A stretch of 64,000 nt of DNA from Apostichopus japonicus (taxonomy: Eukaryota > Echinodermata > Holothuroidea > Aspidochirotida > Stichopodidae). Shown piece after piece: positions 6,827-50,009 of this stretch (positions are counted from its first letter, which is position 1; every line of letters begins with the position of its first letter). A program made the position numbers and the translations under genes. The notes below the pieces were generated by a model. The model searched no databases and was not told the DNA's origin. It worked only from the letters and a program-made list of their open reading frames with translations. The stretch lies in contig NC_092568.1 in assembly GCF_037975245.1 (NCBI RefSeq), forward strand, positions 3,472,001 through 3,536,000. The letters run 5' to 3'.

Positions 6827-7018
6827 TCTCTTGTGAGACTTTGTACCTTAATAGCAAACCTGTGTATACCAGACACAATGTTGTGCATGTCGTAATATGT
6901 GATTTTGGAACTATGGGAGTCAACGAAATACAGGGAACAACAAAATCACAGACAGATGATTACATAAGAGGCAGCTGTTATTTTTTATCAAACGACATAT
7001 TTCACTATCAATTAAAGT
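6827..7018 (+). pseudogene. Possible relic lectin-like exon in intron 2 (upstream copy)
   Basis: This is homologous to 45150-45336 of the downstream copy and keeps the same frame (HNVVHVVICDFGTMGVNEIQ). The first Cys of the downstream version (LNCKPGY) has become Ser and the 5' part is missing. It is probably a non-coding fossil. See the longer downstream version for the domain guess. Confidence 0.3.
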
Positions 7019-9963
7019 GACACTGTTTAATAAAAGAAAAAGAAATTGGAAGAATGCAAATTTGATGTTTATTAATTCGTTATATAAACAAAATCACGTT
7101 AAGTCAGAAACAATTAGCAACATGTTAAAAACAAAGTACTTGACTATATGTTTGAACAGCTAAATAATCGTTTAAAAATACCTCCGAAATCCCCTTTCTA
7201 ACGGATTTAGAATGGATTTTGTACTTTCTGAAATGATCTTTTCTGATGTTCTTTCCTTTTAGTACCTTCAACACAGTTGTTTCCCACAATAGATGGTTGC
7301 CAGGGTGATGATTGCCGTTTGTTTCGGTATGGTGAATTTAAGTTGACATGTACATTGGTTGGACGACCAGCAGTAAATCTTACTTGGTACAATGATACTG
7401 CGGAGGCGCCAGTGACGGACGCCACTGAACTGAATTACAAGGACCCATCCTCAGATATGTTCGTGTCTTCTTCTACCATCAATGTAACGATTGATATCGA
7501 AAACGTACAAAACTTGACATGTTTCCTACGAGGTTTATCAGTTTCCGAAAGGACGAAGAACGCGTCGGTTCTTTTGATGGGACCTACAAATCTTGATAAT
7601 GTATACAGGTCCAAATACCTTGATATTAACTAGGACACTATCTTTAATGAGATACTACAAAATAGTTGTGATAGAGAAACAACGTTTATTCAAACAACAG
7701 AACCTATTGGCAAGACCATTCATATGGCAGATAAATACGATGATCATGGTCCACTTGTACTAACTTCGATGTGTCGTTCAAATCATACTTACACAAGAAC
7801 GTCGATTAAATTGCTTCGTTACAAAACACCAGATGACAGTAGTGCATCATTCGTTGAACAATGTCAAAGTAAAAACAATTGCATTATTGTTGCTGACGAT
7901 GGTAACGCAATTTTGACATGTTTTGTCAATAACACTTGTCCTGCAGCAGAAATCTCATGGAAAGTAGGTAACCAACATGTGTCGATCATTGAAACAACAG
8001 CTTCCTCGTCATGTATCTTCGATGTGTGTAATTCATCTGTGACTATCCGAGTTAAAGTTACCAGCTATAACGGCCAAATCGAGTATCCGCAATGTCTGAT
8101 GTGTCTTGTTACTCTCCCGGGATCTGGCTTTAGTGACGTGTCGTCTGTTACATTACAACTGAATGGTGGTAAGATGATATTACTGAGTGACAATAGATTT
8201 AAGGGAAAAAGTTAACTCGCTGTAGTATATGACCCCGAAGGTGTGGTCGACAGTTTCACGTCCTAAGAACTGAAAAAAAGTGAAATCAGCAATATTTAGA
8301 GAAAACAATGAACAGAGGACTTAAGCAGAAAGTAAACAATGCAATACAAAACATATTTAATAATACGTATCCTAAATTCAAGAACACACTTACCGTAATA
8401 AACCCAACCAACGACCAGCTCTCCCCTCCCCTCCCATCCCCTACCCCACCCACTCAAACCCACAGCTTACACAATCGATAGGTGAATGATGCAACATTAA
8501 AATTGATCACAAGAGATTAAGAGTCCTACAGCTTGGTGGTATGATCACGAAGTTTAAACAAAGAAATGTGGCGAATAACTCGTTTTGGCTAGCTTATGGG
8601 GGTAAAATGTTCCTGTCGAACAATACTTAAGACGAGGTTAAACAAGAGTGAAGTAAATTGTACGAAGAATACTTTTTGGTTAAAGGAATGTCTTAATCTG
8701 CCAATTACACCAATATTTTTGAAGATATATGACTGATGTGCTCGTGCTAAATAAGCTTACTGTCAATTATAACACCAAGAAATGTAACAATTTTGGCTGG
8801 TTCAAGCATATTAAAATTAAACGTTTGTGTCTCGACACGGCGAGGGACGGAATTTGGACTTACTGTTTGATATTTTCTTTCAATATTTAGAAATCATATT
8901 TGGGAACGTTGTTTTTAATTTCATGAGCTTCGATTAGTTATGCTACATACCAAAAGTGAATGTTTCCTATTGAATTAACATCTATATTCAAGTTTGTGGT
9001 TGAACAGTTTTGGCTCTTACCCAGTTATTAGGAACAATGATGATGTAATTGGTGTTTCGTTATTTATTCGCAGCAACTACCAGTGTAGTTACCACCAGGG
9101 AAGATACAAGGAGCACCTCGGTCACGACAAACATCCCCACTACACCGATTACACCAGACTGTCCATCTCACGTCGGAATTATCGTTATTCTTTGTACGTT
9201 AGCGGTGATTGAATTCATTATCATCATTGTCATCAGAAAAAGACAACTCTTCAGAGAAAGTATGAAAAGAGAAGCCATTGAACCATCTCTGTAGCTTTCG
9301 AGAACATCAGAGATCTTGAGTATAGCCAACGATCACATCGAATGTCTCTTCTCTCGTTGAAATAAATATGATTATAAATATGATTGCAATAATTATTAGC
9401 CATTTTCTTGCCAAAATCCTAAGCAGTGTCACCACTAGTCTCCATTTGAACCATTTAACCTCACACGCAACTGGTTGCACTGCATCACATGTGTTCCACT
9501 TCTATGTCGTTTGATTATGAATTACATTGTTGATTTAATGTAATGTTGTCACACTGGACCATTGTTAGGAATCCGGTATGGGTGCTATTCATGATAATCC
9601 CTATGCCAAATACATATAGCAATTAATTTAATAAACTAATTAATTAATTAATTACATAATTATATACATGTCGCTCTAGGTGAATTTAACTCTTTTCACC
9701 ACACTTCGGGCGACATAGAATAAAATAACACTTCGGGCGACATTGGAATGCTTGTATTAAAAAACGCCCATCTATCCAATTTTTTCTTCAAATGATCATA
9801 CAAAATGATCATATAATGTGTTACTACGTCATGTTCGGGTAATCTACATTCGCGCAATTTTCAGTGAAATCTTAGCTTATCATACCTACTACATACGACA
9901 AATGGCGGCGACTCAAATACTTCCTAATGACCAATTTAAAAAATTTAGCACATGCATATAGGC

Positions 9964-26080: not shown

Positions 26081-26399
26081 AAACGTCAGGCGAACTGTTA
26101 CACATCAACAAAATCTCAATGTAATGTTTATATGTATGACGCGACTGAGCTTAACCTTATTAGGGTCATGATGTCAGATGCACGTGACAGAAAGTGAAAG
26201 TAATATAATACATATGATACAGGAACTTAACCAAGATAAAGTGAGCCGCACATTCAGCCGCACTTTTATACAACGTTAACGGAAAGAATCTATAATGAAG
26301 TTAGCAATCACCCACTCGCGCACTGGCAACGTCAACGATATTAGTACGGTGGCCATGAAATGCCATATACACGCGTGTGCATATGTACGGATGGAAAAT

Positions 26400-28480
26400 G
26401 TATTTTTCAATATGAACAAATATATGAGGGGCGGCTGGGTATAGCCTCAAAAAACATTCTTAAAACTGTTGTCACTAAGTAATACAATAATTACCTTTCA
26501 TATTATGTATTATTTGGCGTGTTACTTGCCAAGTATGAGAAACCTACGGGTTCTTGAAATATACCCACCCCCTAAAAAACGAGGTAATTTAGGAAAGTGC
26601 CATATTTTTCAATATGAAAAAATATAATAGGTGCGGCTGGGTATATAGCCTCATAGACATTTCTTCAAACTTATGTCACTAATTAATACGACAATTATCT
26701 TTCATACGATGTATTACTTGGCGTGATACCGCCACGAATGAGAGTGCTACGGATTCTTGAAATATCCCCACCCCCCTGCACTCAGAAACGAGAAAATTTA
26801 GGAAAGTGCCATATTTTTCAGTATTAAAAATATATTAGGGGCGGCTGGGTACTTAGCCTCATAGAAATTTCTTCAAACTTATGTCAAAGGTTAATAGAAT
26901 ATTTACCTTTCATATGATGTATTACTTGGCGTGATACCGCTAAGTATGAGAGTTCTACGGGCTCTGGGAATCTCCCCTCCGCACTCAAAAACGAGGAAAT
27001 TTAGGAAAGTGCCATATTTTTCAATATGAAAAAATGTATAAGTTGTGGCTGGGGCTTTAGCCTCATAGAAAATTTTTCAAACTGTTGTCACTAATTAATA
27101 GGACAATTACCTTCCATATGATGTATTATTTGGCGTGATACCGCCAAGTATGAGAGTGCTAAAGGTTCTTGAAATATCCCCACCCCCCTCAAAAACGAGG
27201 AACTTAAGAAAGTGCCATATTTTTCAATATGAAAAATTGTATTAGGTGCGGCTGGGTATATAGCCTCATAGAAATTTCTTCAAACTGTTGTCACTAATTA
27301 ATAGGACAATTACCTTTCATACGATGTATTTTTTGGCGTGATACCACCAAGTATGAGAGAGCTACGGGCTCTGGATATACCCCCTCGAAAACAATATACA
27401 CGCGTGTGCATAGATGCTGATGGAATATATATTTGTCAATATCAATGAATATATTAGGTGCGGCTGAGAATTTAGCCACATAGAGAATTCTTCAAACTGT
27501 TGTCACTAATTAATAGAGTAATTACCTTTTATACGATGTATTATTTGGCGTGATACCGCCAAGTATGAGGGAGCTAAGGGCTCTGGAGATACAACCTCAA
27601 AACGGTGGAAATTTAGGAAAGTGCCATATTTTTCAGTATTAAAAAATATAAGGTGCGGCTGGGTATTTAGCCTCATAGAAATTTCTTCAAACTTATGTCA
27701 CTAATTAATACGACAATTACCTTTCATTCGATGTAATATTTGGCGTGATACCGCCAAGTATGAAAGTTGTACGGGCTCTGGAAATCCCCCCACCCCCTCC
27801 GCATTCAAAAACGAGGAAATTTAGGAAGTGCCATATTTTTCAATATGAAAATATATAATAGGTGCGGCTGGGTATTTAGCCTCATAGAAATTTCTTCAAA
27901 CTTATGTAACTAATTAATAGAACTTATATTTGCCTTTCATATGATGCATTAATTGGCGTGATACCGCTAAGTATGAGAGTTGTACGGGCTCTGGGACCCC
28001 CCCCCCCCCCCCTCTCTGCGCACTCAAAAACGAGGAAATTTAGGAAAGTGCCATATTTTTCAATATGAAATAACTTATTAGGTGCGGCTGGGTATTTTGC
28101 TTCATGGGAATTTCTTTAAACCTATGTCACTAATTGATAAGATAATTACCTTTCATATTATGTATTATTTGGCGTGATACCGCTAAATATGAGAAAGCTA
28201 CGGGCTCTGGAAATCCCCCCCCCCCCCTCAAAAACTGAGGAAATTTAGGCAAGTGCCATATATTTCAATATTTAAAAAATATTATAAGGTGCGGCTGTGT
28301 ATTTAGCCTCATAGAAATTTCTTCAAGCTTATGTCACTAATTAATACGACAATTATCTTTCATACGATGTATTATTTGGCGTGATACCGGCAAGTATGAG
28401 AGTTGTACGGGCTCTGGAAATCCCCCCCGCCCCCCACCCTCCGCCCTCAAATACGTGGGAAATTTTCATTGTAATTTTCC
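26400..28480 (+). repeat. Satellite array, left arm (about 10 units of about 207 bp)
   Basis: The anchor GGCGTGATAC recurs at 26516, 26720, 26928, 27132, 27335, 27547, 27742, 27955, 28171 and 28378, a mean spacing of 207 bp. A unit contains GTGCGGCTGGGTATTTAGCC, TTTCTTCAAACTTATGTCAC, TACCTTTCATACGATGTATT, a poly-C tract and CAAAAACGAGGAAATTTAGG. Units diverge by point changes and poly-C length. No open frame runs across units. Confidence 0.93.
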
Positions 28481-29309
28481 TGTAATCTGGGCGGCATTTT
28501 TGACAACAATTTCGTCGCTACGCTACGCGCCAACCGATGGTAGCGCTCCACTTAGATCACAGCCCCATCCCCCATGAAATCATTTTGCCCCTAAAAAATT
28601 AAGATTGGCCACGCCCCTGTCCCTGTCCCCAAGACACAAATTGCATAAATGCAGCTACATTGTTTGATTCACCAAAAGACCTCTACAGTTGTCGACTGTT
28701 GTGGGAAGGAGGTGGCAAATGTTATTATTCTCACAAAGACTACACCCAGGGGCGCTGTCCGCTATATTTCGATCGTCGACAGTCAGAAGGCTGCATAATG
28801 AATGTTAAATTTTTCTTCTGAACTAATTAGTCATGTCTGTCTGACTCTGCTGCTTATCAATCATTACTACCATTAGGGTAGTTGTTTGGAAGGTCGGAAT
28901 TTCTAAACGTTGGAGAAAGGTCAACCATGTAGGTCGACGGCAAATGTATTTCAACCGATACGCAGAGGATGTAGGTCGACGGCAAATGTATTTCAATCGA
29001 TACGCAGAGGCGGAAAGTTTCCCCGCCACCCGGAGCATGAAGGTCAAATCCGGGGTCAGAATCATACTTTATTCAGTACAAGGGAAATGTGGAAATCTCC
29101 CGCTCTACGTTCTCGGTGTGAAAAAGTTTTTATTTCACGCATGCGTATTTGTATTCTACTGTAAGACGTATTCTATACTCAGTGAAGTAAGCCAAATGTG
29201 CCGTCTAGGTCGTTAACGTTGAATGAAACGCGCAGGCCCAAAAATTCTTAGTAGTTACATATTTGTACGCACGGTTCGACCCTTCTGTTGTGCAATTAAT
29301 CCATGCTTT

Positions 29310-29760
29310 TGTTACACCCCGCCTTGTTTTCTGTAATTCTATTTTCATTGGCCTTCCAAAAAATCTGGTAATTCGTTTGCAAAAACATTAAAACTGGACT
29401 GCCAAACTTATCTTCAAGCAAACTAAGTTTACACATGTTACCCCTCTTCTTAAAGCATTACACTGGCTTGCAATTGAAACGCGAATACATTTCAAAGTCC
29501 TTACTTTAATCCACAAATCTCCAAACTACCTTTCAGAACTTCTAATAGTGAAGCAATACAAGCGTGCCACCCGTCAGTCAAAAATTATTACCCTCCTTGA
29601 ATCTAGGACCAATGGGATTACTTATGCCAACCGTGCTTTTTCAGTTTCTGGTCCCAAATTGTGGAATTCCCTCCCAAACCATTTAAATGTATAACTAATA
29701 AATCACTTTTCAAATCATAACTAAAAACCTACCTCTATGCTAAACATTTATCAATTGGAT
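29310..29760 (+). pseudogene. CR1-like LINE fragment, RT C-terminal region
   Basis: Plus-strand frame HVTPLLKALHWLAIETRIHF, then KVLTLIHKSPNYLSELL, later FSVSGPKLWNSLPNHLNV. These are the LHWL-x-I-x-x-R-I-x-F-KVL and LWNSLP motifs at the end of CR1/RTE-type RT ORFs. A frameshift upstream and a TAA after LNV break it. It lies inside the large foldback candidate. Confidence 0.75.
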
Positions 29761-30394
29761 GTGTAATTATATTTCATTGTTGCATTATTATTTTTGCTTT
29801 TCTTTCTATTCATATTTATATGTATGGCGCTTTTGACAACTATTTTGTTTATAATGAGCGCATTAAAAATTTTAGTTAAAATTATGTTAATAAACAAGAA
29901 GTCTTTCCTTTCTATACGGTTGCTTCCATACAATAAGTCTACAGTGAGAATTTCTGTCAGTAATATACAAAATTCTGCAAGTTCACTTCAAAGATTAATT
30001 TGTAACAGATCAAAATGCTTACAATAGATACCAAAGTATATGTTGTTCCATTCCAATGTATGCTTCCTACATCAGTGAGGTGTAACCCTGTCACTCAATG
30101 ACAGATCCCATGGCAACTTTCTGACTAACTATCAATCACTCATCCAGGTACTTATACATGACACTTTTATCCTATTTGTTTCGAGCCATTCTTTTCATCC
30201 TGTCCGCCCAGACAGAAAATCACCACACACGGACGTTTGGGGGAATTCCGCGAGACCGAAGGTCCGCGAGACCGAAATTAAAAAAAGGTCCTCGAGACCG
30301 AAAGTAAAGAAAGGTCCGCGAGACCGAAACTATTACTAGGCCCCACGACATCGACGTAGCCATAAATTTAAAGCGGGCACATTTCGAGATTGAT

Positions 30395-30960
30395 ATGGGG
30401 GGGGGGGGGTCTCTGTTGAGATTTCTTTGGCTGGACGACATCATAATAAATGATTTCATGCACCTCATCCAACGACAAACCATTGATTCGCATACATTTG
30501 TGTGCAATTCCTTCCACACAAAATCATCTAATACAGAAGAAAGACAAGCGAGGAAGTGGTATGGAGGCCAGAAAATAATTGCATCCAAGTGGGTCCTGAT
30601 GCCAGTAAACGACGGGAACTGCCATTGGATCTTGCTTGCGGCAAACTTGGTCCAGAAGAAAATATACCTTCTAGACCCCCTTTGTGACAGAAAGGTAAAC
30701 GAAGACATGAACATCTTTCGACGCTTTATTGAAGCGAGATCAGCCTTTGAGGGGAAACCAATGATATGCAAACAGTGGCCTGTAAAGACAACATCAGATA
30801 TGAAGTTTCCCTTTCAGCCAACAATGAATGACTGTGGTTTATATATATACTGTTCTATGCAAAGTCATTGTTGTCTGGTAAAAACGTACCAGTGACAGAC
30901 ATTCGAACCATGCGTTTGTCGGTATATTATGAACTCCATGAGTTCGATATGACGAGACCC
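30395..30960 (+). pseudogene. Ulp1/C48-family cysteine protease remnant (transposon-type)
   Basis: One frame of 166 residues shows WLDDIIINDFMHLIQRQ at its start, then NCHWILL (His77), YLLDPL (Asp94) and FQPTMNDCGLYIYC (Gln141 and Cys147). This is the His-Asp-Gln-Cys catalytic order of SUMO-protease-like C48 peptidases. A frameshift near 30868 leads to an early stop; the natural continuation (GKNVPVTDIRTMRLSVYYEL) lies one frame over and runs to about 30960. The catalytic residues are thus intact but the C-terminal helix is out of frame. The first residues come from a poly-G tract, so the true start is upstream and lost, or an exon border lies near 30415. Ahead of it (30249-30335) are three to four copies of CGCGAGACCGAAA-type repeats. 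C48 domains occur as accessory genes in several DNA transposon groups, which fits its place between the foldback arms. Confidence 0.75.
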
Positions 30961-31074
30961 TAAGACTAATGAGTGGCAAAATTCTTTTTCTCTCAACGAT
31001 CGTATTGTTTGTGTATCCGCGCAAATCCCGACAAATGTTAGTGTGTCTTGCAACATAGAATGTCATAATATCCT

Positions 31075-31640
31075 AGGAGAGCCAAATGAAGTTTCCACGA
31101 ATATAATCTGTGAAGATTTCATATGAGACCTAAATGATGATGTTGACTGTCATGATTTCGTAGGAGAGTTAAATGATGTTTCCATTCAACAATGTAAACT
31201 GTCACGATATTATAGGAGAGCTAAATGATCATGTCTCCACCCATATGGACTGTCATGATTTCATGATAGAGCTGAATATTGATGTTTCCGCCCAATTAAC
31301 TTCCATGGACACGGTGTCACAGCAGAGCTAATGATAATATGTCATAATTTCATAAGAATGGAGCTAAATGATGTTTCCATACAACAATGTAAACTGTCAT
31401 GATATTATAGGAGAGGTAAATGATGTTGTCTCCACCCATATGGACTGTCATGATTTAATGGGAGAGCTAATTGCAAGTGGTTCACCCCATATGGACTTTC
31501 ATTATTTTTAGGGGAACTAAATTAGGATGTTTTGGCTAAGATGGACTTCCAGATTTCATATGATCGCTATAACTGTTGATGTTTTGGCAAGGATGAACTG
31601 TCGTGGTTTTATAGGAGACCTAATTGCTTTTGATTGGCTC
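31075..31640 (+). repeat. Degenerate minisatellite (units of about 60 bp)
   Basis: Repeated blocks of the form ACTGTCATGATTTCATAGGA, GAGCTAAATGATG and TTTCCACCCATATGG recur about nine times with substitutions and indels. No coding frame. Located between the arms of the large foldback candidate. Confidence 0.85.
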
Positions 31641-33162
31641 CATGTCCCTTCTCCTCAACCCTAACGTAACAACAACGAAACTCCCAAAGTGGCCTTGATT
31701 GCTTGTATGTCCAGAATTGCAGTGGCGAGGAGATAATCCAGAAAACAGGAAACGGTTAGTATATATGCACATGCCCAATAAATATAATACCAAATATCAA
31801 ATTATGTGTTAAATGTAGAAAATACTCACCAAATATGCATATTTGTAACGTTTCCCTAATTGTTTTGAGGGGGTGGGGTGGAATGCAAACCATTAAAATT
31901 CACGATCGATATCACGTTAATATTTTCATTCCACAGAAGTTTGAAATTAGTGTCACCGCGCGCTCACGGCACATTTCTCAAAAGCGATCATGACCAGGGA
32001 AAATTCGATCACGATCGTTGTAATTAGTTCTTTACATAACATATGCACAAGGCATTCGCTCGATATGCGCTCAAGTTTCCTCCCTGCATTTCCATATTAA
32101 CTTAAAAATAATTCCATACAGTGGTCTCTGGCATATACCACCAAATCCCAGGTAACGTTTAAATATAGATCGCCTTTTATTGGGAAAGCGGACCGTGAAT
32201 TCCAAAGCAAACGGACTTGGGGCCGGGTGGGGCAACTGGGGTGGGAAAATGACATTCGGGGCAAATGGTTTCGTGGTTTGAAATTTGTGCTTATAAAACT
32301 TAAGGGCGTGTCCACTTCCCGTTATAATTGTTTACACTAAAAATGTTGTAATACATTTATAACCGTTGTATAGGTGTAACAAGGTTAATGCCATCACCAC
32401 TTCCGTAAAGTATCAACACATATGTCAATGATATACACGAGGGTTAACGTTCCGACACTCTTTGTTTCTTCCGACAGGAATATGGACAGTCTGTCATAGA
32501 CTGAGTTGATGGAGGGATTCATACGAGGCAACATCATTCAACGTCACGACACGGTACTTTTGACAACTTGGTTGTTGTTCATCATTTAATTGTGCAAGTA
32601 CTCTAAGAGTTTGATTCAATTGCATAATATGACTTGTTTCAATGTGTTTATTCGGTTTATTCTACTCATTCTGACAATCCACAGGTATTAGTTTTTCGGC
32701 GATAAGCGAGTAATGTTGAAAAAACCGTAGCAGTGTGGAAACAGCCAACGTTTTCGTAATTCTCGATAGTAATAATTAGAACAATTTGATAATTGTTTGC
32801 TCGCGAATTTTAGTCCCCCAAAAACCTTGACCGTACCATTAAAGGAATGATGTTCTGAAACATCTAACATAACAGTATGTCAATTTTTGTATAATTATGG
32901 TGGGTAGTGTATGCGGCAAATAGTCCCAAAATTAAGCAGCTCGTAAATAGAGATTCGTTTACTTAACGTTATAGTTTAATTTAGTGTTTATAGTTCATAA
33001 CGTTGAGATGTTAAAGCGTATCTTTTTAATTATATGGTCCATTTAACTTGTAGGTTGGTACATTGTTATAGTTTTGAACAATGTATTGTAACAATTGTTG
33101 CTTGAAGATGCTATTTCCATCGATAATATTGCTTAAGAAGTCACTAATTAGGCCTACATTAT
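31641..33162. other. Gene-free interior of the foldback candidate
   Basis: No exon, known repeat or transposase motif was recognised on either strand. Open frames are at most about 72 residues. Confidence 0.5.
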
Positions 33163-34801
33163 CAAGGGCGGCGGAAGCACTTTTAATCTGGGGGGGGGGG
33201 GGGCACCGACGTCGAAGGGCACTTTGCAGAAATTTGATTGGACTGATGCAGCCTGATATTTAGTACCCTTTATAACTCTTATTGTATTATCCTATTTGCG
33301 TATACACATCACTCCATCATCGCCCCTCCCCCACCCTCAAGGAAAAAATGCATACTAGCACTGCAATATCCAATTTGCAAATTGGGAAACAAGGAACAAG
33401 TTTTCTTTCGAGACAAAATGAGGTGGAATCATTATAAAGTCCCTGCACACGCGATCGATAAATGCATGAAAGCAAATGAAATATGTCAAAATACGAAAGG
33501 ATGGGGTACGTTATGGGATATTAAACTATACTCATTATTCATAGTAGGCTATAAATGGCTTCTGCTTATTAAAAAGTTAAAATGTAATATAGCAATGCAA
33601 TTTTGGATATGCATTAGAATTTTTTAAAAATTGATTATGCATAATGGCACTCACCAGAATGTTAGAAGCAGTATAGCGGAGCTAGGGGTAATGATCAGGG
33701 GGTCGATAATGGTCTGTAGGGGCGTTTTTGACACTATCTAAGCGGAGCGCCGCCACAGGTTGGCGCGGAGCGTAGAGAAAATTTTTGAGTAAAGATACTC
33801 CCCAGATCGCCGGAAATGACCCTTTGCGGGCCTTGCTTATTTGCAGATAAACGAAGAATAAATAGGTGTCATCGCCATTTTGTCAGAAAATTACACCAAC
33901 AAAACGTGACAAGTTTCAATAGGTAGATGAGAGCGCAATTAAAAAGTCAATAATCGCGAATAAGTAAAAAATGGTAAAAAGCTGAAAAGGGCCCAAGCAG
34001 TACATTTTAGTCCGTCAGGGGGGCATCCGCCCCTGACTGTATGGACGCTCCGCCACTGATTACAAACCTTGTGGTAGTAAACATTGAAAACTTCCCGAAA
34101 TATTTCATTCGACGTGGGTTTCGCTTTGTAAACTCTTTAGCAATGTCCCGCTCATTGGTGCCAGTAGGTATATGTGTATTAGGCAGAGAACATTCGGAAT
34201 AGCCAGGCGAATGTCATTGTGGTCAGACAGGAGAGATACTAAAATGTTTTTGCATTCGAAATAGCTTTGAGTTTGACCCACAGAAATTCATTAATAGTTC
34301 TAAATTAGGATTAGATCTCTGAAATATCGCTGACCTAATAAGGTGATCGAGAGTACAATTTTTATGAAGAAAAAGGGCACATTTTTAACCTGAGGAAAAG
34401 TGGGGGCACGTGCCCCCTGTGCCCCCCCGGTTCCGCCGCCCTTGGTTACAATTATAGCCAGTAATTGTCTTTGATATGAATTGTAGCTAGTAAATGTTTA
34501 TCGAAAAGGCTGTTTTTGGAACTTGGAACGCCGATCGTGACAACAACAGGCAACAAAGTGCTGCAGCTCTATACATATAAAGTCTGTTAATCAACGATAG
34601 GCCCGGGCCTACAGTGCTACATACTGGCTACGCCCCTGATAGTTCTAAAATAGGATTAGATCTCTTACTGAAATATCGCTGACCTAATAAGGTGAACAAG
34701 GGTACAATTTTTATGTAGAAAAAGGGCACATTTTTAACCTGACGAAAAGTGGGGGGGGGGGGGGCACGTGCCCCCTGTGCCCCCCGGTTCCGCCGCCCTT
34801 G
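33163..34801 (+). mobile_element. MITE family D, copy 2 (1.64 kb), with internal duplication and nested piece
   Basis: Begins CAAGGGCGGCGGAAGC and ends GGTTCCGCCGCCCTTG. The flanks are the exact direct repeat TACATTAT (33155-33162 and 34802-34809). The last 150-160 bp occur twice (34294-34444 and 34640-34801), so a false right end lies at 34444. An unrelated insertion carrying the GCGGAGCGCC module, ending GCGTCCATACAGT.. to ..GCTCCGCCACTGA, occupies about 33690-34065. It is longer than copy 1 only through these additions. Confidence 0.9.
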
Positions 34802-34969
34802 TACATTATAAAGAATAACAAATGCTTCTGGATGCAGTGTGCATTGATATCAAGTTCATTCATAATCCAAACAACCACACATTCTATTGTGTAGTTTTTC
34901 CTCCTCATTCGTACTAGGTCAGTTTCATTTGTCATTGAACTTTTCCTTTAATGATAACAGTTTAAATAG

Positions 34970-36640
34970 ATTTCAATATATGAGGCTAAATATCCATCAG
35001 TACCTAAAACGTTAGTTTTCCATGTCATTTTAAAAATTATCTTCGTATTCGAGGAAGGGGGTAATTAGGTAGCCTAGCCCTCTAATACGTAGCAAATTTT
35101 ATATCAATAGAAAGTGCATTGTTTTTTATGTTAATGACCACAGCTTGAAGAAATTTCTATGAGGCTAAATACCCAGCCGCATCTAATATATTTGTTCACA
35201 TTGAAAAATACATTTTCCATCAGCACATTTGCACACGCATGTATATTGTTTTTGAGGGGGGAGGGTGTTCCCAGAGCCCGTAGCTCTCTGATACTTGGCG
35301 GTATCACGCCAAATAATACATCATATGAAAGGTAATTACTCTATTAATTAGTGACATAAGTTTGAAGAAATTTCTATGAGGCTATATACCCAGCCGCACC
35401 TAATATATATGTTCATATTGAAAAATACTTTTTTCCATCAGCACATTTGCACACGATTGTATATTGTTTTTGAGAGGTGGGGGGAGGGGTATTTCCAGAG
35501 CCCGTTGCTTTCTCATACTTAGCGGTATCACGCCAAATAATACATCATATGAAAGGTAAATATTGTACTAATTAGTGACATAAATTTGAAGACATTTCAA
35601 TGAGATTAAACACCCAGCCGCACCTAATGTATTTTTTTCATATTGAAAAATACATTTTCCACCAGCACATATGTATATTTTTTGAGAGGGGGGGGGGGAG
35701 GGGTATTTCCAGAGCCCGTTGCTTTCTCATACTTAGCGGTATCACGCCAAATAATACATCATATGAAAGGTAAATTTTCTATTTATTAGTGACATACGTT
35801 TGAAGAAATTTCTATGAGGCTAAATACCCAGCCGCAGCTAATATATTTTTTCATATTGAAAAATACATTTTCCATCAGCACATATGCACACGCATGTATA
35901 TTGTTTTTGAGGGGGGTATATCCAGAGCCCGTAGCTCTCTGATACTTGGCGGTATCACGCCAAATAATACATTATATGAAAGGTAATTACTCTATTAATT
36001 AGTGACATAAGTTTGAAGAAATTTCTATGAGGCTATATAACCAGCCGCACCTAATATATTTATTCATATTGAAAAATACTTTTTTCCATCAGCACATTTG
36101 CACACGATTGTATATTGTTTTTGAGAGGTGGGGGGGGGGGGGGTATTTCCAGAGCCCGTTGCTTTCTCATACTTAGCGGTATCACGCCAAATAATACATC
36201 ATATGAAAGGTAAATATTGTACTAATTAGTGACATAAGTTGGAAGACATTTCAATGAGGTTAAACACCCAGCCGCACCTAATGTATTTTTTCATATTGAA
36301 AAATACATTTTCCACCAGCACATATGTATATTTTTTGAGAGGTGGGGGGAGGGGTATTTCCAGAGCCCGTTGCTTTCTCATACTTAGCGGTATCACGCCA
36401 AATAATACATCATATGAAAGGTAATTTTTGTATCAATTAGTGACATAAGTTTGAAGAAATTTCTATGAGGCTGAATACCAAGCCGCACCTAAAACATTTT
36501 TCATATTGAAAAATATGGCACTTTCCAAAATTTCCTCTTTCTTGAGTGGAGGAGGGGGGGGGGGTATTTCCAGAGCCCGTAGCTCTATTATACTTAGCGG
36601 TATCAAGCCAAATAATACATCATGTGAAAAGGTAACACGT
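34970..36640 (-). repeat. Satellite array, right arm (7-8 units of about 216 bp, inverted)
   Basis: This is the reverse complement of the 26.4-28.5 kb satellite. The anchor GGTATCACGCC recurs near 35301, 35525, 35739, 35952, 36179 and 36390, with a variant at 36600. Units three apart (about 651-654 bp) are much more alike than neighbours, so the array has a trimer higher-order structure. A degenerate unit starts it at about 34970. Confidence 0.93.
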
Positions 36641-36840
36641 AAAATACATACAGCATAGGCTTGTTCCTATCAAAGCGTACTGGCCACGTAATCTATTATA
36701 TAAGGCCCCTATAAGCTACTGTATAATATACATGGTAAGATTAACATCTGGATACGTACTTGTTGCTCGCTTCAACGACAACAGATTCTTGAATGTGAGG
36801 CTGAATGTGCGGCTCACTTGATTTTAATAGGAACTTAGCC

Positions 36841-39523: not shown

Positions 39524-42500
39524 ATGAAGATACCATTCTTCTTGACAATCCTTTCACATATACTGGCTCAATCAGGTAGGTATTATCTATTATCTATCCA
39601 TCTGTCCGCCGTGTGTATGTTTAGCTACAACGCGTACTAAACACCGCCGCACGTCTCGTTACTAGAACTCGGAAATATTAACACATTACCCCTACCATGA
39701 TCGAACTCCACTGGCTCCCGATACGTGAACGATTCAACTACAAACTACTTCTGATGGTGTTCAAATGTATGCACAATGTAGGACCAAGCTACCTCACCAA
39801 CTTGTTTCAGCTCCGACCATCATCCACACGCTCATTTCGCTCTAATTCATCGCTGATGTTACTCATCCCTAGAGTAAAAACACAGACTTACGGCTTGAGA
39901 ACGTTCGCATCCAGTGCACCTTGCCTCTGGAACTCACTTCCTGAACATGTTAAAATGTGCAATACTGTGAACGGATTAAAAACAGCTCTCAATACATACT
40001 TTTTCACCAAAGCATATATGTTATAATTGTTATTATTATGTTAAGCACTACAAGAATTATTTCATAGATTGTTTGGCGCTATATAAAAATTATGTATTAT
40101 TATTATTGTATTCTTTTGGCTGTCAGCATGCGAGATCTACTCTGTCAAGTTTTCATATGTGCAGTCTATAGACAATTAAACACATCGTACTTTCAAAGCT
40201 GCCGATTTGCAAATTGCTCATTAGATTCGAGTACGGTCCGAGTCAGAGAGCAGCTTGTCCAAAATTAATGGGTTCAAACTGGTCGGAGTCAAAAAGGATC
40301 GGGAGTGCAGACCTTCACGAGGTTATGTCAAAGTCTGAGCTATATGGACTTAGAAGACTGTTTACAGTCGAAAGTTAACTTTTCAGGACCATCTCTGCCC
40401 AGAACTATTCTTATGTCATATATGATATATGCTATATTCTTCAGTGAAACAAAGTGAGGCATCCTTTCCTTTTTGTTACCCATGCAGGTATAGCCTAATA
40501 ATCAGCAAGAAATAAGGCTTGAAAGTAAACCAATTAATAGCTTTTCAAAACTTTTTAAGAATTGTTTCTCATATTTTTTCAAAGGTATTATAGCTACCAC
40601 CAATGACTTCCTTAATTCATAAGCATAATTCATAATGTGAGTGTGTGTTTATGATTGCAAGTTTAAGGTAGTCATTTTATCCCATCGTAAGTGATTTGTA
40701 CGGAACGTCAGGTTACTGAGGTCAGGTGTTTTACTTGCCTACAATCGTTTCTTTACAGAAAGCAGCGTTCTTTTGTGTAACCCGCAACAATATGTACACA
40801 TTCATCAACAAGGAACGATTTACTGCAGCGTGTCTGAGCCTATATACGGCTTCTACTGGTATTTTGAAGATAACCCACAATCCATAATAACAATGTTGGA
40901 AGACAGTCAGGCCGGGCCTAGGAGTAATACATTAAAGATTGCTCGCAATGGATCTCTGATATTCAGCAACGTTTCCCTGAGTGACGAAGGACAGTTTAGA
41001 GTCGATGCTATTCTTGACGCTGGTGGCGATGTATCCGCCTACATTGATCTTGTTGTAATAGGTAAGTAATGTATACAGGCTATACTGTTATAGAGAAATA
41101 TGTCTAAGCAGATGCGAAAGTACCCCACCCAAACTTGAGTTTATAATTACCCTTTCATTGTTTCCATTTGACATGAAGTCGTTTTAAGGAATAGTCCATC
41201 TGTTTCTTAGCTTAATGCTTTGCCAAAGGACCGTCATTGCCAACTGCCAAACATTAAAGGAAGGTTTCCAAAGTTTTAATTCCGATTCGGTACTCCATAT
41301 TGATTACGTTGTAAATCATTTAGGTACTTGTGTGCTGTTGGAATATGTTTTGAAAAGAAAGTCGATGAATCCAGTTCCCTGTGTTACGTTGGAATGCGAG
41401 AGGTCTCGATAACTAATTTTTAACTAGACACAAGCCTGGGTTCGTTTTTGAGAGGAACACAGACAAAATGACGAGTTTAGAGAATTTAAATGAGAACGTA
41501 AACTATATTGAACAATGGAGTTTGAACTAACAACAACAAATGGTAATTACAAATATTCGCAAAGTGCCCTTTGATGTCGGTGCCCCCCAGATTAAAAGTG
41601 CTTCCGCCGCCCTTATATTCGTGGTTTCATTCAAATATACATGGTATGAACTTAAAACTGTCCTGATTTTAATTCGAATACATCCTCGTATTAATTCGAA
41701 TGTCAACGTATATTAAATCTTGAGATGACAAGAAGGCTTTGTAATACCATCTTAACTAATGTTAGTATTAGTTAATCCATGATCATTGAAGATTAGGAAG
41801 TCCACTTTTAATATAGGTGGAGTCAGGCCGAAGTTTGAACACAGACTTGTATAGCTGCAAGGAGCATGTTTGGATTTCAAGCGGCAAGGATGGAGGCTTT
41901 TAGGTGATAAGAAGGGTTGTCTTTGCTCTTCCTAAACAACATATTTGTAAGTGCTCATGTTGCCCTCGTTTAAATTACTTTAAAAAAATGCCCGATCAAA
42001 GACCACCCTTTTTATCACCTAAAGGTCTCCATCCTTGACGCCAGAAATCCAAACTTGCTCCTTGCAGCTATACAAATTCCGTAGTTCCAAAGTTGGTGGG
42101 GAGGTACCCCAGGGTAAAAACCGGAGCCAATGATCATAACGACAAATTGAGTGAAAATCGATATATTTGTTGCTGTTGCTATAACTCAAAGGAAAAACAT
42201 TGAATTGACAATGCACTTTCAGGTAGCATGGTAAGTCAAGTTCTACCAAGATATGTGGTTACCATGGGAGCCGAGATAAGACGTCACGTGGTTAAAGGCC
42301 AAAGGTAGTATAATGAGTGGAATTTTGTGTCCAAGACTCATCCTAAACGGCTGGGCCGATTCTCTTCACATATAGTGGGAAGGTATACTCAGTACTTGAA
42401 CCTTTTTGTCTCGCAGGCCCCAGGAACCAAAGGTCAAAGGTGATATTCAGTGAAATCGTCTTCTGAAAAAGTTGTGTTATACTAATTAACTCCAAGGGGA

Positions 42501-45500
42501 ACATTTAATTAACATGGAACCTTCAGCGGTGAATTTGTTCATTTGATATCAGGGTTTGCTGGCGATGAGATATGCAACTCCGTGGATTGCTCTCTTGTTT
42601 GTATTAAGTAATGCTAGTGGAGTTAGAATGGGAAAAGGGCGGGATTGGATACGTGTTCCAGTAATACCAAGTATCAAAGATTGCTTTATGGGCATAACCA
42701 TGAGACATGACCTTTAAAGAACTTCTCTTCTGTCTTTTAGATGAGAACTAGGAGGCAACCCAAACATAGATGAGATCTGAAGAAGCTATTTCGGAATTGT
42801 ATATTTATATAAATATAAAAGTCAAGGGTGAATGTGAGATGTTTAAATATGGGAGAGTGAATTTATCCAAACGTGTTACTATTGGCAACAGGGTCTCCCT
42901 GATTTAAATTTATTTTCAAAATCCTTCCCTCCATCGATGAAGTAAACTAAGCTTTCCGGTTATCAGTAATCACAGACTAATACCCATCTTCTTCAGGTTA
43001 AAGAAATTATTTCTGTCATGAGATTCAAATAGATACTCGCTTATCCGCGTGTATACTTCGACTTAATAATTTAATAATATATTCGATATAAAACTAGTTT
43101 AAATTCATACGAATGCGATTGGCTGTTTTAATACGCGTAGGAAGCTCCACTTCAGCTATACCGGGTATGCTGCCCTCGCAGACGCGTCTAGATATGCGAC
43201 ACTAGACAGCTAGCTAACCAGCGAAATGACGAGAAAAAGACAGGAGTACGGTTCTGTAAACTGTATTGAGATTCCTCACTCATGTTATCGCGGTAAAACT
43301 GAAATAAAAGGATATGATAAACTTGAATAATAATGATGCTAAATACAACACTATGAATGTTTTAAATGAAAGATTATAACGGTGAACTTCGAACTTGCCA
43401 TAGGCCAAATGAAGCTCACCACAGTACAATATTCTACACTGAATAACTATAATGTGATGAGAGTCGAATAACTCTGGAGTTTAATTAATTCTCTTAACTT
43501 GTCTTAAGAAGAATAATTAATGAAGTTTACTAAAGAACAAATAGAGTATCAAATGAGCAAAAACTATTATGATTAATTAGTAACATCAATCCATCTCAAC
43601 GAACGGCAATTACGTAACGTAAGTAATACGCAACTCTGATAGGAACATGAATATGTAAGCAAACACATAGTAGAACAGGGGTAAGGTAATTGAAACCCAA
43701 GTGTAACTAAATAAATATTAACTTAATCAAGTCACAAGTAAATATATATATAGTTATGGAGTCGCCCATATTTAATAAACAACAAAATATGTGCAAACCT
43801 GCAATCGAGGTAAATACTTCTTAATTGGAAAACAAATACATTAATTATGTCTAATTAACAATCTCAATAAACTGACATGTGCATGGTAAGCAAGGTAGTA
43901 CAATAATTAACCTAACAAATAAGACAAAGAGAAAACTTACAGATTATAATTGAGCCAGGTCGAAAACGTTAGCTAATGAAACTGTGTACGATATGTAAGG
44001 CGGATGCGGTTTTGCCTACTATAATGCTGAAAACAGAATGATGTCTATAATGAAAAGCAACACAGGTCTCTGAGAAAAGAAATAAGTGTGAATCTCCCAT
44101 TACCCAGAGACCCTCCTCATGTGTGGTCAGGGAGAAAGTTTAACAACAACTCTTCCATCCTGACTTGCCCCCTGCTGACCTATCATAACAGAGCTGTGCT
44201 ATGAAGTTACAGATAGCTCAAACTGATCTGACCAAAGAGCAGGCAGCAGAGCGAAAGATAAGAAGAGTCACAGGTGGCCTGCTTAATGAAGTATAAACAA
44301 TAACATGTGTAGTACAGTGTAAACTGAATCCCTGTGAAAATGAATAAGTACTGAAAACAGGACTACCTGCCCGATAGGCGATAAAAAAAAAAACATTTAC
44401 TTGAATGGCAGAATACCGGGCCAGTATCGGGTTGACGCTATCTTAAATACTGGTGGCGATGTATCCACCTTCATATATGTACTTGTCGTAGGTTAGTACT
44501 TCTATGTTGATGATGCATATCAGGCTCATAAGCAGGAGGGGGGGGGGGGGGAGTGGTCCGGACGAACTCCCATGCAGCATCCATGATCCGCTTCGGATAG
44601 GATTTTGTAGTTGCGTGATAAGACTATTTGGGGTTTTAATAACAAAGAAAGACTTTCATCACTAGCGCCGCTACACATTCATTATTATAGTCCACTACTG
44701 CTTGGATACAAGGTAGTTGACGTGTTTGCAGTACAGCAACCAAGGAGGATGGACCTGCAGAGTGTCATATTCAGATCGACTATGTTAAACCTTTATATTA
44801 TATAAAATACTGCCGAGTACTTGCCACGGGGGGGGGGGGGTGGGGGTACGATTGGATATGTCCTTCCGTTAATCCGCGACTGGTTCTTTACCTTTGCAGC
44901 TCTTGGATTCTTTCTATTCATGCGATATTCCTTCTAGGTCTCTATATCGAAACGGCTTTTTCTCTATAATTTTGGTAAAATCCATAAAATTGTGAAATAT
45001 TTTTTTTTTGGGGGGGGGGGCAAGAAGGAAGGCTTTTCCAGACCCGTGCCCACAGGAGTTAGTAATTAAAATGGTCCACTTTTCATTGTAAAAGCTGCAC
45101 GAGGGCCTGAATATATTGTGACAATGGACGTGCCATTCACACTCTCGTGTGAGACTTTGTACCTTAATTGCAAACCTGGGTATACCAAACACAATGTTGT
45201 GCATGTCGAAATATGTGATTTTGGAACTATGGGAGTCAACGAAATACAGGGAACAACAAAATCACAGACAGATGATTACATAAGAGAAAGTTGTTATTTT
45301 TTATCACACGTCATATTTTACTCACAACTAAAGTGAGAATGCTTAATAAAAGAAAAGAAATTGGAAGAATGCAATTAGATGTTTATAAATACGTTATGTA
45401 AAAGAAATCACGTTAAGTCAGAAACAATAAGCAACATGTTACAAACAAAATACTAAAATTTTTACTATATGTTTGAACAGCTAAACGATCAGTTTAAAAA

Positions 45501-47609
45501 TACATCCGAAATCCCCTTTCCAACGGATTTAGAATGGGTTTATTACTTTCTGAAATGATCTATTTCTGATGTTCTTTCTTTTTTAGTTCCCACAACACAG
45601 ATGTATCCCAAAATAGATGGTTGCCAGGGTGATGATTGCCGTTTGTTTCGGAATGGTGAACTCAATTTGACATGTACAATGATTGGACGACCGGCAGTGA
45701 ATCTTACTTGGTACAATGAAATTGCGGAGGCGCCAGTGACGGACGCCACTGAACAGAGTTACAAGGACCCATTCTCAGATATGTTTGTGTCTTCTTCTAC
45801 CATCAGTGTAAAGATAGATATCGAAAACGTACACAACTTGACATGTTTCCCACGAGGTTTATCAGTTCCCGAAATGACAAAGAACGCGTCGGTTCTTTTG
45901 ATGGGACCTACAAATCTTGATAATGTATACAGGACCAAATACCTTAATATTAATGAAGACACTAGTTATAATGAGCTGCTACAAAATAGTTGTGATAGAA
46001 GAACAATGTTTATTCAAAGAGCAGAACCAAGTGGCGAGACCATTAAAATGGCAGATAGATACGATGATCATGGTCCACTTGTACTTACGTCAATGTGTCC
46101 TGAGAATAATACTTACACAAGAACTTCGATTAAGTTGCTTCGTTACAAAACACCAGATGACAGTAGTGCATCATTCGTTGAACAGTGTCAAAGTAAAGAC
46201 AACTGCATTATTGCTGCTGACGATGGTAACGCAATCTTGACATGTGCTGTCAATAACACTCGTCCTGCAGCAGAAATCTCATGGAAAGTACTCAACAGTA
46301 GTATTTCGATCATCAATATGATAGCTTCCTCGTCATGTATCTCCGATGAATGCAATTCATCTGTGACTATCCGAGTTAAAGTTATCAGCTATCACGGACT
46401 AATCGAGTATCCGCAATGTCTGAAGTGTCTTGTTACTCTCCCGGGATCTGGGTTTAGACATGAGTCGAATGTTACATTACAACTGAAAGGTAAGAAGATG
46501 TTACTGAGTGACAACATATTTAAGGGAAAAGTTAACTTGCTGTAGTATATGACCCCGAAGGCGCTGTCGACAGTTTCACGTCCTAAGAACTGAAAAAAAG
46601 TCAAATCAGAAATATATCGAAAAAGCAATGAACAGAGGAATACAGTAGAAAGTAAACAATGCAATACAAAACATATTTAATCATACGTATTCTAACTTCA
46701 AGACCACACTTACCGTCATAAACCCAACCCACGACCAGCTCTCCCCTCCCCAACCCATTCCAACCCACTGCTTACAATATCGATAGGTAAATGATGCAAC
46801 ATTAAGATCGATCACAAGAGATTAAGAGACTCATACAGCTTCGTGGTATGATCACCAGGTTTGAACAAAGAAAGGTGGCGAATAACTCTTTTGGCCAGCT
46901 TATGGGGGTAGAATGTTCTTGTGGAACAATACTTAAGATGAGGATAAACAAGAGTGAGGTAAATTGTAAGAAGAATACCTTTTGGTAAAAGGAATGTCTT
47001 AATCTGCCAATTACACCAATATTTTTGAAGATATATGACTGATGTGCTCGTGCCAAATAAGCTTACAGTAAATTATAACACCAAGAAATGTAACACTTTT
47101 GGCGGGGTCAAGCATATTACAATGAAACGTTTGTGTCTCGACACGGCGAGGGACGGAATTTTGACTTACTTTTTGATATTTTCTTTCAATGTTTAGAAAA
47201 GATATTTGGGAACGTTCTTTTTTAAATTTCATAAGCTTCAATTAGTAAGTTATGCTACAAACCAAAAGTGAATGTTTCTTATTGAATTAACATCTATATT
47301 CAAGTTTGTGGTTGATCAGTTTTGGCTCTTACCCAGTTATTAGGTACAATGATGACGTAATTGGTGTTTCGTTATTTATTCGCAGCAACTACCAGTGTAG
47401 TTACCACCAGCGAAGATACAAGTAGCACCTCGGTCACGACAAACATCCCCACTACACCGACTACACCAGACTGTCCATCTCACGCCGGAATTATCGTTAT
47501 TCTTAGTATGTTAGCGGTGATTGAATTCATTATCATCATTGTCTTTATCAGAAAAAGAACACTCTTCAGAGAAAGTATGAAAAGAGAAGCCATTGGACCA
47601 TCTCTGTAG
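39524..47609 (+). CDS. Type I membrane protein with three Ig-like domains (intact paralogue)
   Basis: Four coding exons, all split in phase 1: 39524-39575, 40759-41061, 45587-46489 and 47386-47609, predicting 493 residues. Residues 1-17 (MKIPFFLTILSHILAQS) form the signal peptide. Residues 18-118 are a V-like domain with Cys40 and Trp51, but the strand F motif is DEGQFRV where D-x-G-x-Y-x-C is usual, so the canonical disulfide is missing, as in CD2- and CEACAM-type N-terminal domains. Residues 119-419 hold two more Ig-like domains (LNLTC..VNLTWY..HNLTC, and AILTC..ISWKV..YPQCLKC) with many N-glycosylation sites. A Thr/Ser-rich stalk (420-448), a helix at about 453-474 and a 19-residue basic tail without Tyr motifs follow. 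It is probably a cell-surface recognition or adhesion protein; the ligand is unknown. All splice phases agree and the paralogue supports every boundary. Confidence 0.85.
39622..40110 (+). mobile_element. CR1-like LINE 3' end in intron 1 of downstream Ig copy
   Basis: The frame 39697-40026 contains MIELHWLPIRERFNYKLLLM, then PSYLTNLFQLR, then PCLWNSLPEHVKMCNTVN. Upstream LQRVLNTAARLVTRTRKY is in frame apart from one TAA. It ends in an ATT-repeat tail. It is orthologous in position to 3899-4388, so the insertion predates the gene duplication. Confidence 0.8.
41555..41614 (-). mobile_element. Isolated end of MITE family D
   Basis: About 60 bp matching the first 60 bp of family D in reverse (..AAAAGTGCTTCCGCCGCCCTT). 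No second terminus is nearby, so it is a truncated copy. It is absent from intron 2 of the upstream Ig copy. Confidence 0.7.
41995..44400. other. Intron 2 sequence unique to the downstream Ig copy
   Basis: A/T-rich with no supported exon or complete transposon. A stretch near 43030-43150 with ATTCGATATA and GATTGGCTG resembles similar A/T-rich sequence at 6290-6540 and 39200-39430. Confidence 0.45.
44405..44491 (+). pseudogene. Truncated relic of the V-like Ig exon
   Basis: Reads GQYRVDAILNTGGDVSTFIY then VLVV and a GTTAGT donor, against GQFRVDAILDAGGDVSAYID..LVVI|GTAAGT in exon 2. Only the last third of the exon survives and it has no acceptor. It shows that the gene once had, or briefly gained, an extra V-like exon in intron 2. 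Confidence 0.75.
45075..45336 (+). pseudogene. Possible relic or alternative lectin-like exon in intron 2
   Basis: An open frame (AARGPEYIVTMDVPFTLSCE, TLYLNCKPGYTKHNVVHVEI, CDFGTMG..) resembles the C-E-x-x-x-L-x-L-x-C-x-x-G-x-x-I pattern of galactose/rhamnose-binding (SUEL-type) lectin domains. A weak acceptor (TTGTAAAAG) precedes it; no good donor is seen before the stop at 45334-45336. The upstream copy keeps the frame but has lost a Cys. The domain match is a guess from one motif. Confidence 0.3.
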
Positions 47610-49070: not shown

Positions 49071-50009
49071 TCACTTCGCCCAACAACCATTTCGCCCAAC
49101 TGCCATTTCGCCCAACCAGCCTGGTCATTTCGCCCAACCAGCCTGGTCATTTCGCCCAACCAGCATTGTCATTTCGCCCAACCATCATGGTCATTTCGCC
49201 CAACCGTGTTGGTCATTTCGCCCAACCTTATTTTTTACTAATATTCAGTCAGAATAATATTACTTTTTTCTATTCCACTAGTTCAATTTGATTTATTTTG
49301 GGTTAGGTTACTTCGTAATAGGTAAATAAAAAAGTGAGGTCCGCTCGATATCTCGATATCGATCGGAGTAGCTGAGCAGTTATTTCGGGTATATATGGGA
49401 GGATTACACTACTTTAGGCGAAGTTACGCATACAATGGAAGTTATATTATTATACAAACACAGGGGAATCGGTCTTCATAAAAACCTATCAAACGTAAAC
49501 ACTGATCCATTCTACTGACTAACAATTCCCGAACGTTTCCTTATTAAATTGAAAAAAATATTAAACCCGTCCGTAATATTGAATTACTATATTTAATCAA
49601 TGTAACCACTTATGTAATCACATATGTTATCAATTTAACCACGACTTCAAGTTTCCTTAATACTCGGTTCGTATCCCGTAACGTTAACATTTCCCGAACG
49701 TTTACTATATCAAACCTATCAAACCTAACCCCTAAAACACTGATCCATCCTCAAGATTCCTTAATATTCGGTTCGTATCCTGTAACGTTAACAATTCCCG
49801 AACGTTTCCTTTTGAAATATCATATTTAATCAAGGTTGGGCGAAATGACCAGACTGGTTGGGCGAAATGACCAGGCTGGTTGGGCGAAATGACCAGGCTG
49901 GTTGGGCGAAATGACCAGGCTGGTTGGGCGAAATGACCAGGCTGGTTGGGCGAAATGGTAAGGTTGGGCGAAATGGCAGTTGGGCGAAATGGTTGTTGGG
50001 CGAAGTGTC
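49071..50009. mobile_element. Small foldback element with TTTCGCCCAAC subrepeats
   Basis: The left arm (49071-49229) and the right arm (49832-50009) are inverted. Both start, read inward, CACTTCGCCCAACAACCATT and continue with TTCGCCCAACTGCCATTTCG, then repeats of CAGCCTGGTCATTTCGCCCA (about 5 on each side). The middle of about 600 bp has its own repeats (CGGTTCGTATCC..GTAACGTTAACA..TTCCCGAACGTTT) and no coding frame. I found no convincing target duplication. Confidence 0.8.

Follow-up and report, generated by a model that had tools for sequence, protein, structure and literature searches.

A probable non-autonomous copy of a giant DNA transposon family of Rehavkus-like anatomy in the sea cucumber Apostichopus japonicus

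Rehavkus elements are the DNA transposons whose published anatomy comes closest to that of the element described here. Rehavkus elements make a 9-bp target-site duplication, have inverted repeats of 26-400 bp, encode a PHD finger in the transposase and carry a minisatellite before the 3' end, and the hosts listed for them are arthropods and annelids (PMC6446971). Rehavkus-1_TC of Tribolium is a 9.5-kb element with arrays, mostly of 5 and 8 units, of a 164-bp satellite in its inverted termini (PMC10218199). The present element lies in a 64,000-nucleotide stretch of the Apostichopus japonicus genome (assembly GCF_037975245.1, contig NC_092568.1, positions 3,472,001 to 3,536,000), hereafter called the window, to whose positions all plain coordinates refer. 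It is very probably a non-autonomous, internally deleted copy of a giant DNA transposon family of Rehavkus-like (Mutator-related) anatomy. The coding members of this family, 20-56 kb long, hold one polyprotein composed of a PHD finger, a ubiquitin hydrolase (USP), a transposase-like core and a Ulp1 protease.

The family shares with Rehavkus the 9-bp duplication (10 of 12 copies, with 10 bp in the other 2), the PHD finger, the arrays in the inverted termini, a terminal inverted repeat whose 34 bp fall within the 26-400 bp range, and a single polyprotein frame. It differs from the Rehavkus descriptions in its length of 7-56 kb, in having USP and Ulp1 in the same protein, and in its echinoderm host. 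It therefore resembles Rehavkus in anatomy, the two being set side by side by descriptions and not by sequence.

As far as our literature searches reach, the size (53- and 56-kb elements), the presence of ubiquitin- and SUMO-type proteases in one polyprotein and the echinoderm host appear to be new, and the combination is unusual. The word 'ulp' does not occur in the available text of PMC6446971 or PMC13359780, nor 'ulp1' in that of PMC10218199, all of which mention Rehavkus. Searches that included Ulp1 yielded no description that we recognised of USP and Ulp1 in one transposase (passages included PMC3212892 and PMC2836005), and the available part of a review of giant transposons, which considers size limits on cut-and-paste cargo, describes no element of this kind (PMC6431247).

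Paired ends and movement of composite units

A single mobile element fills positions 26230-36828 of the window (10,599 bp). Its inverted ends, at 26230-26263 (+ strand) and 36795-36828 (- strand), are 34 bp long and identical at 29 of 34 positions, including 21 bp exactly; 1000 simulated flank pairs contained no exact inverted match longer than 13 bp. Flush outside these symmetric ends stands the perfect 9-bp direct repeat AGGAACTTA (26221-26229 and 36829-36837, + strand); a 9-mer match at that fixed place has a probability of about 6e-6 by base composition. The initial annotation, made from the letters of the window, had reported inverted blocks beyond the arrays, which are indeed present, and a direct repeat matching at 11 of 12 bases, which has to be shortened to the perfect 9-mer, as its extra bases oppose the element's first ACC to GCC in the flank. 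Inside the ends lie a left subterminal block (26264-26364, +), conserved in the C15a and C21 copies, and a right one (36636-36794, +), conserved at C21, C16, C17 and C15; the left block has no match to the right one inside the window at E 1e-3.

The genome searched was the window's own (671.6 Mb, 35 contigs). Copies are labelled with C and the number of their contig, with a or b for copies on one contig, and C8 is the window copy. Contig C35 carries a mitochondrial COX1 in which AAA stands at 11 sites that are Asn in animals, and in which ATA and AGA read well as Ile and Ser; this code is used in the mitochondria of echinoderms, and also of flatworms and hemichordates, and agrees with an echinoderm host. 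With 26221-26420 as a query, two further copies were found whose match starts at query base 10, that is, exactly at 26230, and the right end block was found at five places besides its own, two of which are pieces of one C15 copy. Allowing up to 2 mismatches, the 21-bp end core gave 39 matches, against 0 for the reversed pattern used as a control, and 24 of the 39 make 12 facing pairs spanning 7-56 kb. A script run over all pairs found a perfect flanking duplication in every one of the 12, all different, of 9 bp in 10 pairs and of 10 bp in 2. When each left flank was compared with the right flank of every other element, none of the 132 combinations reached 9 bp, the longest match being 3 bp.

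Element lengths, taken as end-core match coordinates plus 9 bp on each side, are as follows. The copies with 9-bp duplications are C1 (25.0 kb, CAAACAATC), C2 (26.2 kb, CTAGCACTG), C3a (55.9 kb, TCTGTGAAC), C3b (12.0 kb, CCAGAAAAG), C7 (22.9 kb, TTGTAACAT), C8 (10.6 kb, AGGAACTTA), C15a (7.0 kb, ACCTTTGAG), C16a (20.1 kb, CAGCATTAC), C20 (24.1 kb, CACTTATTC) and C21 (26.9 kb, TAGCCTAAC); those with 10-bp duplications are C15b (12.0 kb, GCTTGAGATC) and C16b (53.3 kb, CTAGCCTAGG). In C15a, an insertion, which we take to be a tRNA-like short interspersed element, parts the right terminal repeat from the subterminal block, and the repeat and the duplication resume past it. C1, C2, C7 and C20 show about 98% identity in the first 1.2-1.5 kb of their right ends, and therefore the family has moved recently. 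The end core had no match in viral and prokaryotic contig collections, and the C21 protein gave three pattern matches in the viral collection, none of them a relative; it should be noted that such collections say little about this family.

Two further comparisons bear on movement. The window interior contains a nested insertion (33163-34801; 33155-34809 with its 8-bp duplication TACATTAT, no strand assigned) with ends CAAGGGCGGCGGAA, which from the length of the duplication is presumably hAT-like; related pieces occur at 23.7-24.3 kb of the window. At the corresponding point, C21 has a single TACATTAT and no insertion, i.e. an empty site. C15a, which is 96% identical to window 33781-34950, contains ~1 kb from the right side of the insertion together with its right junction, letter for letter; the left junction was not found in C15a. 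Because the window copy and C15a, at different places, share an insertion that C21 lacks, the insertion came before the unit was moved or copied. In addition, the joined flanks of the window element are similar (76% and 79%) along almost their full length to two further places on C8, where they lie collinearly with no element between. The proposal that arrays, end blocks and protease form one mobile unit is therefore upheld by the 12 paired-end loci with perfect duplications, by the nested insertion common to some copies and absent from another, and by the two element-free paralogous repeats.

The polyprotein and its remnant in the window

In a blastn comparison with C21, window segments 28454-30429 (91%) and 30428-33166 (95%) are adjacent in the window and about 10 kb apart in C21, which, together with the junction sequence, places an internal deletion junction at approximately 30428-30429 (no strand assigned). 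The C21 stretch missing from the window, taken with its borders, holds a PHD exon and an open frame of 1355 amino acids (aa) with USP (PF00443, E 2e-25), a core without Pfam match, and C48 (E 4e-14). Window positions 30422-30853 correspond, at 95% identity, to residues 1177-1320 in the protein of C21; the C48 open reading frame (ORF) of the window has 195 aa compared with 1355 aa in C21, and the two frames diverge just past the catalytic Cys. As the window copy is without the ~10 kb present in C21, its 'Ulp1 gene' is the frame-broken tail of the polyprotein (30422-30963, +, identified by Pfam C48, its end being read from the sequence). The initial annotation had described a C48 protease with intact catalytic residues and an accessory Ulp1 gene. 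The domain is there (Pfam E 2.4e-12), with His, Asp and Cys readable, but the frame departs soon past the Cys and the gene is truncated; nor is it accessory, being the C-terminal domain of a transposase-like polyprotein left behind by the deletion. The minisatellites noted inside the element are real (31.05-31.63 kb): a minisatellite of 44-51 bp directly follows the Ulp1 tail (31052-31633, +) and is common to the C21 copy. C21 itself has an insertion between PHD and USP, whose protein we take to be a Penelope-type GIY-YIG; this insertion is missing from a relic at C16:30.8M, in which PHD leads directly on to USP.

A six-frame genome search with the 1355-aa C21 protein, in which the best 34 of 164 candidates were scored, revealed polyprotein homologues in at least 8 of the 12 paired elements (C21, C3a, C16b, C2, C20, C7, C1 and C16a). 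Some of these homologues are broken: a single stop interrupts C2 and likewise C7, C16a is split in two and contains one stop, and C1 is in two pieces of one open frame. One polyprotein frame is present in C3a, C16b, C20 and C1. In C3a, PHD, USP, core and Ulp1 follow in a single frame of at least 1479 aa; the PHD finger (PF00628) was found in C3a and in a C21 exon, a stretch that the window copy lacks. In the same search C8 and C15b showed Ulp1 only, and C15a and C3b had no polyprotein match among the best 34 of 164 candidates. The short C15b copy has kept only an open 197-aa Ulp1 domain (positions 496-1086 of the C15b stretch) with readable catalytic residues, either by chance or by selection for free Ulp1.

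The polyprotein DNA of C3a and C16b is 99.5% identical, and their host elements, of 56 and 53 kb, have different duplications. More distant pairs show where the protein is conserved. Between C3a and C20, identity is 54% in USP, 65% in the core and 52% in Ulp1; between C3a and C21 it is 44%, 54% and 52%, respectively, and the linkers of the two pairs are 9-28% identical. With identities so far above those of the linkers, the two proteases seem to be under almost the same constraint as the core. The ratio of nonsynonymous to synonymous substitution rates (dN/dS) over the whole ORF is 0.24-0.36 in four close pairs with few changes.

A second family shares the core at ~30-31% identity, with at least 8 loci (C14:1015747, C3:49575, C22:26390447, C8:17329784, C4:13382819, C20:28374010, C12:23368440 and C8:40419002) having open frames of 1340-2017 aa, and a shorter locus at C16:30.26M. 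Two members were read, the C14 copy and, for the core region only, C12. The domain order of the C14 copy is PHD-core-USP-Ulp1, and the occurrence of the same parts in another order in a distant family may mean that deubiquitinase and deSUMOylase have been kept together because both are required, and not by accident.

Residues D630, D710, H754, H759 and E964 (C21 numbering) are common to all five core sequences compared from the two families. We take D630/D710/(H)/E964 to be a Mutator-like D-D-(H)-E set, and D630, D710 and E964 may represent the catalytic D/D/E of a putative transposase core.

Transposases with proteases have been described before. Ginger1 encodes a transposase with a C-terminal Ulp1, in one case with PHD, and has OTU or Ulp1, never both; Ulp1 occurs in Mutator elements of hydra, lancelet and plants, and a C19 ubiquitin hydrolase accompanies a transposase in Trichomonas (all in PMC2836005). 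The present family is like Ginger1 and the Ulp1-bearing Mutator transposons in the C-terminal Ulp1 of its transposase-like protein, and unlike Ginger1 in having USP and Ulp1 together in one protein.

Satellite arms

Two arrays of one satellite face each other in the window, as was first annotated. The raw sequence, TRF and a repeat search all show the same ~200-bp unit at 26365-28441 (left arm, +, about 10 units at a spacing of 195-220 bp) and at about 34948-36635 (right arm, -, inverted with respect to the left, about 8 units with the innermost partial, spacing about 210-227 bp); of 18 units detected by nhmmer, 10 are in the left and 8 in the right arm. With these long, internally repetitive inverted termini and its 9-bp duplication, the window element has the structure of the foldback class. 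At least 97 matches to the unit were found in the genome, and all the listed ones lie in the C8, C15a and C21 elements and in right-end relics on C16 and C17; related units also occur in the left end of C15b (local blastn). This satellite, for which every listed match belongs to a transposon or its relics, may represent an early stage in the birth of satellite DNA.

Comparable termini are known from Tetris, in which a flanking domain is followed by an array of a ~220-bp repeat that shares a 37-bp stretch with that domain; the termini reach 1.7 kb, the duplications are of 8-10 bp, the authors found no coding copy, and the repeat has spread as satellite DNA (PMC4079207). Like Tetris and Foldback (Drosophila), the present elements have inverted termini built of a flanking domain and an array of ~200-bp repeats, here with 9-10 bp duplications; unlike Tetris, the family includes coding copies, and none of the listed satellite matches falls outside the elements or their relics.

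Arrays with a period of 202-226 bp occur within 1.5 kb of 13 of the 30 ends examined, a set that excludes the left ends of C3b, C16b and C20: both ends of C8, C15a and C21, the left ends of C1, C2, C3a, C7, C15b and C16a, and the right end of C16b. The motif AGCC[GT]CA[CT] is present in 12 of the 13 unit consensuses, and most arm arrays contain the terminal-repeat motif AGCCGCAC[ATTC]. All 15 occurrences of the 8-mer AGCCGCAC in the 64-kb window are in the arms or ends, a count that overstates independence because the units are copies of one another. Since the arrays carry this short terminal motif, the arms may supply extra binding sites.

The arms could instead be passive by-products of replication slippage or unequal exchange, with no role in transposition. 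We regard this as unlikely, although it is the alternative that survives best. The arrays do homogenise locally. Of the 10 left and 8 right units found, 7 (one being double) and 5 were compared: identity is 85% within the left arm, 91% within the right arm, whose units form one clade, and 78% between arms, so that the arms homogenise separately. Units were also aligned without gaps to the terminal repeat of the same element, and the best match was compared with 200 shuffles; only 0-7 shuffles reached the match in the sister left arms. In the window subfamily the result was weak and, taken alone, not significant, as 14-16 of the 200 shuffles reached the match in left arms and 47-67 in right arms; in the right arm of C16b, from which the motif is absent, 192 of 200 shuffles did so. 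On the other hand, sister subfamilies with diverged units keep the ~204-215 bp period and the same motif, which speaks against a passive origin. The view of the arm units as copies of the terminal motif thus has only partial support. That the arms are predicted transposase-binding sites is plausible, helped by the precedent of Galileo, a P-superfamily transposon in which tandem repeats in long termini bind the THAP domain of the transposase, as seen by footprinting and electrophoretic mobility shift assay (PMC3688188). The present family is like Galileo in these tandem repeats and unlike it in the protein, as the P-type transposase of Galileo has THAP and no THAP match was found in the C21, C3a and C14 proteins.

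Affinities, alternative explanations and possible mechanism

A link to foldback or Mutator-like families was part of the initial annotation. It is supported at the level of anatomy, which combines a 9-bp duplication with a PHD finger and with satellite DNA in the inverted termini, as described for Rehavkus. The element might be a classical Mutator-like element (MULE) of foldback structure such as Phantom or Tetris, and not Rehavkus-like. Tetris, with its ~220-bp tandem repeats in inverted termini and 8-10 bp duplications, is assigned to Mutator by its authors (PMC4079207), and Phantom in aphids has 8-10 bp duplications and a minisatellite past the transposase (PMC6446971, Table 1). However, a PHD finger and a satellite in inverted termini are features reported for Rehavkus, and no MULE family was among the Pfam matches of the five core sequences at E up to 5. 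We consider a classical MULE rather improbable, somewhat more so than passive arms.

Giant DNA elements with a cysteine protease also bring Polinton/Maverick to mind, and there is a Peptidase_C5 match, weak and below cut-off. The 9-10 bp duplications and the PHD/USP/Ulp1 protein set the present family apart, and neither the window interior, scanned in six frames, nor the C21, C3a and C14 proteins gave a match to DNA polymerase B, retroviral-like integrase or packaging ATPase. The case for Polinton/Maverick identity is therefore weak.

Several observations weigh against the reading of the window feature as a copy of a Rehavkus-like transposon, or against parts of it. Fifteen of the 39 end cores are unpaired. 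About 30 bp at the insertion point align poorly in both C8 paralogues and the original 9-mer is unreadable, so that these places show the absence of the element and not the pre-insertion 9-mer. The five core sequences gave weak, unrelated matches and no transposase family in Pfam, and a profile search against solved structures returned no transposase; the term 'transposase' therefore rests on the place of the core inside paired ends and on the conserved D/D/E. As to the latter, E964 is one of several invariant acidic residues, other D and E being invariant as well. USP alone has dN/dS of 1.1 and 1.4 in two close pairs with C20, again with few changes. To these are added the motif results for the window and C16b arms given above. 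No live transposition was observed.

The remaining alternatives do not fit the ends. A segmental or inverted duplication copied by recombination might be suggested by the large size and by inverted arms that could recombine, but copies on 9 contigs end at the same base with different 9-10 bp direct repeats, and their short flanks differ by eye; it is very improbable and was rejected on the common end base and the distinct duplications. Least probable of all, and likewise rejected, is the chance facing of two independent arrays with chance end blocks and a short direct repeat, which could appeal to the separate homogenisation of the arms and founders on the same paired ends at 12 places, on perfect duplications against 0 of 132 in mismatched flanks, and on the location of all the at least 97 listed satellite matches inside elements or relics.

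If the window feature is indeed a copy of a Rehavkus-like transposon, the polyprotein would bind the ends, excise the element and insert it through a 9-10 bp staggered cut; it would also mobilise short elements in trans, the window copy among them. Satellite arms bearing the terminal-repeat motif may add transposase-binding sites and so help a very long element to join its ends. USP and Ulp1 probably take ubiquitin and SUMO off the transposase, or off repair and chromatin proteins at the cut ends. We propose, tentatively and with rather less confidence than the assignment itself, that this is a cut-and-paste lineage, recently mobile at >50 kb, that depends on fused ubiquitin and SUMO proteases and on arms acting as end-binding arrays, and that moves DNA far longer than typical cut-and-paste elements do. 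The 12 flush-ended copies, of 7 to 56 kb, offer a natural system for three questions: how very long DNA is dealt with by a cut-and-paste transposase, whether arms made of satellite are arrays of binding sites, and why transposases gain ubiquitin and SUMO proteases.

Some minor features of the window lie outside the element. Similar long ORFs flank it (5533-8212 and 40695-46542), receptor-like by eye, as if they were diverged gene copies. No Rfam family (at gathering score) or tRNA was detected in the window. Perfect microsatellites (100% match) are present at 451-807, (AAT)119, and at 55995-56810, (CATC)204. A small look-alike of the large structure is formed by two related arrays of a 22-bp minisatellite (CATTTCGCCCAACCAGCATGGT / GGTTGGGCGAAATGACCAGGCT), at 49104-49227 and 49834-49957, which face each other about 600 bp apart.

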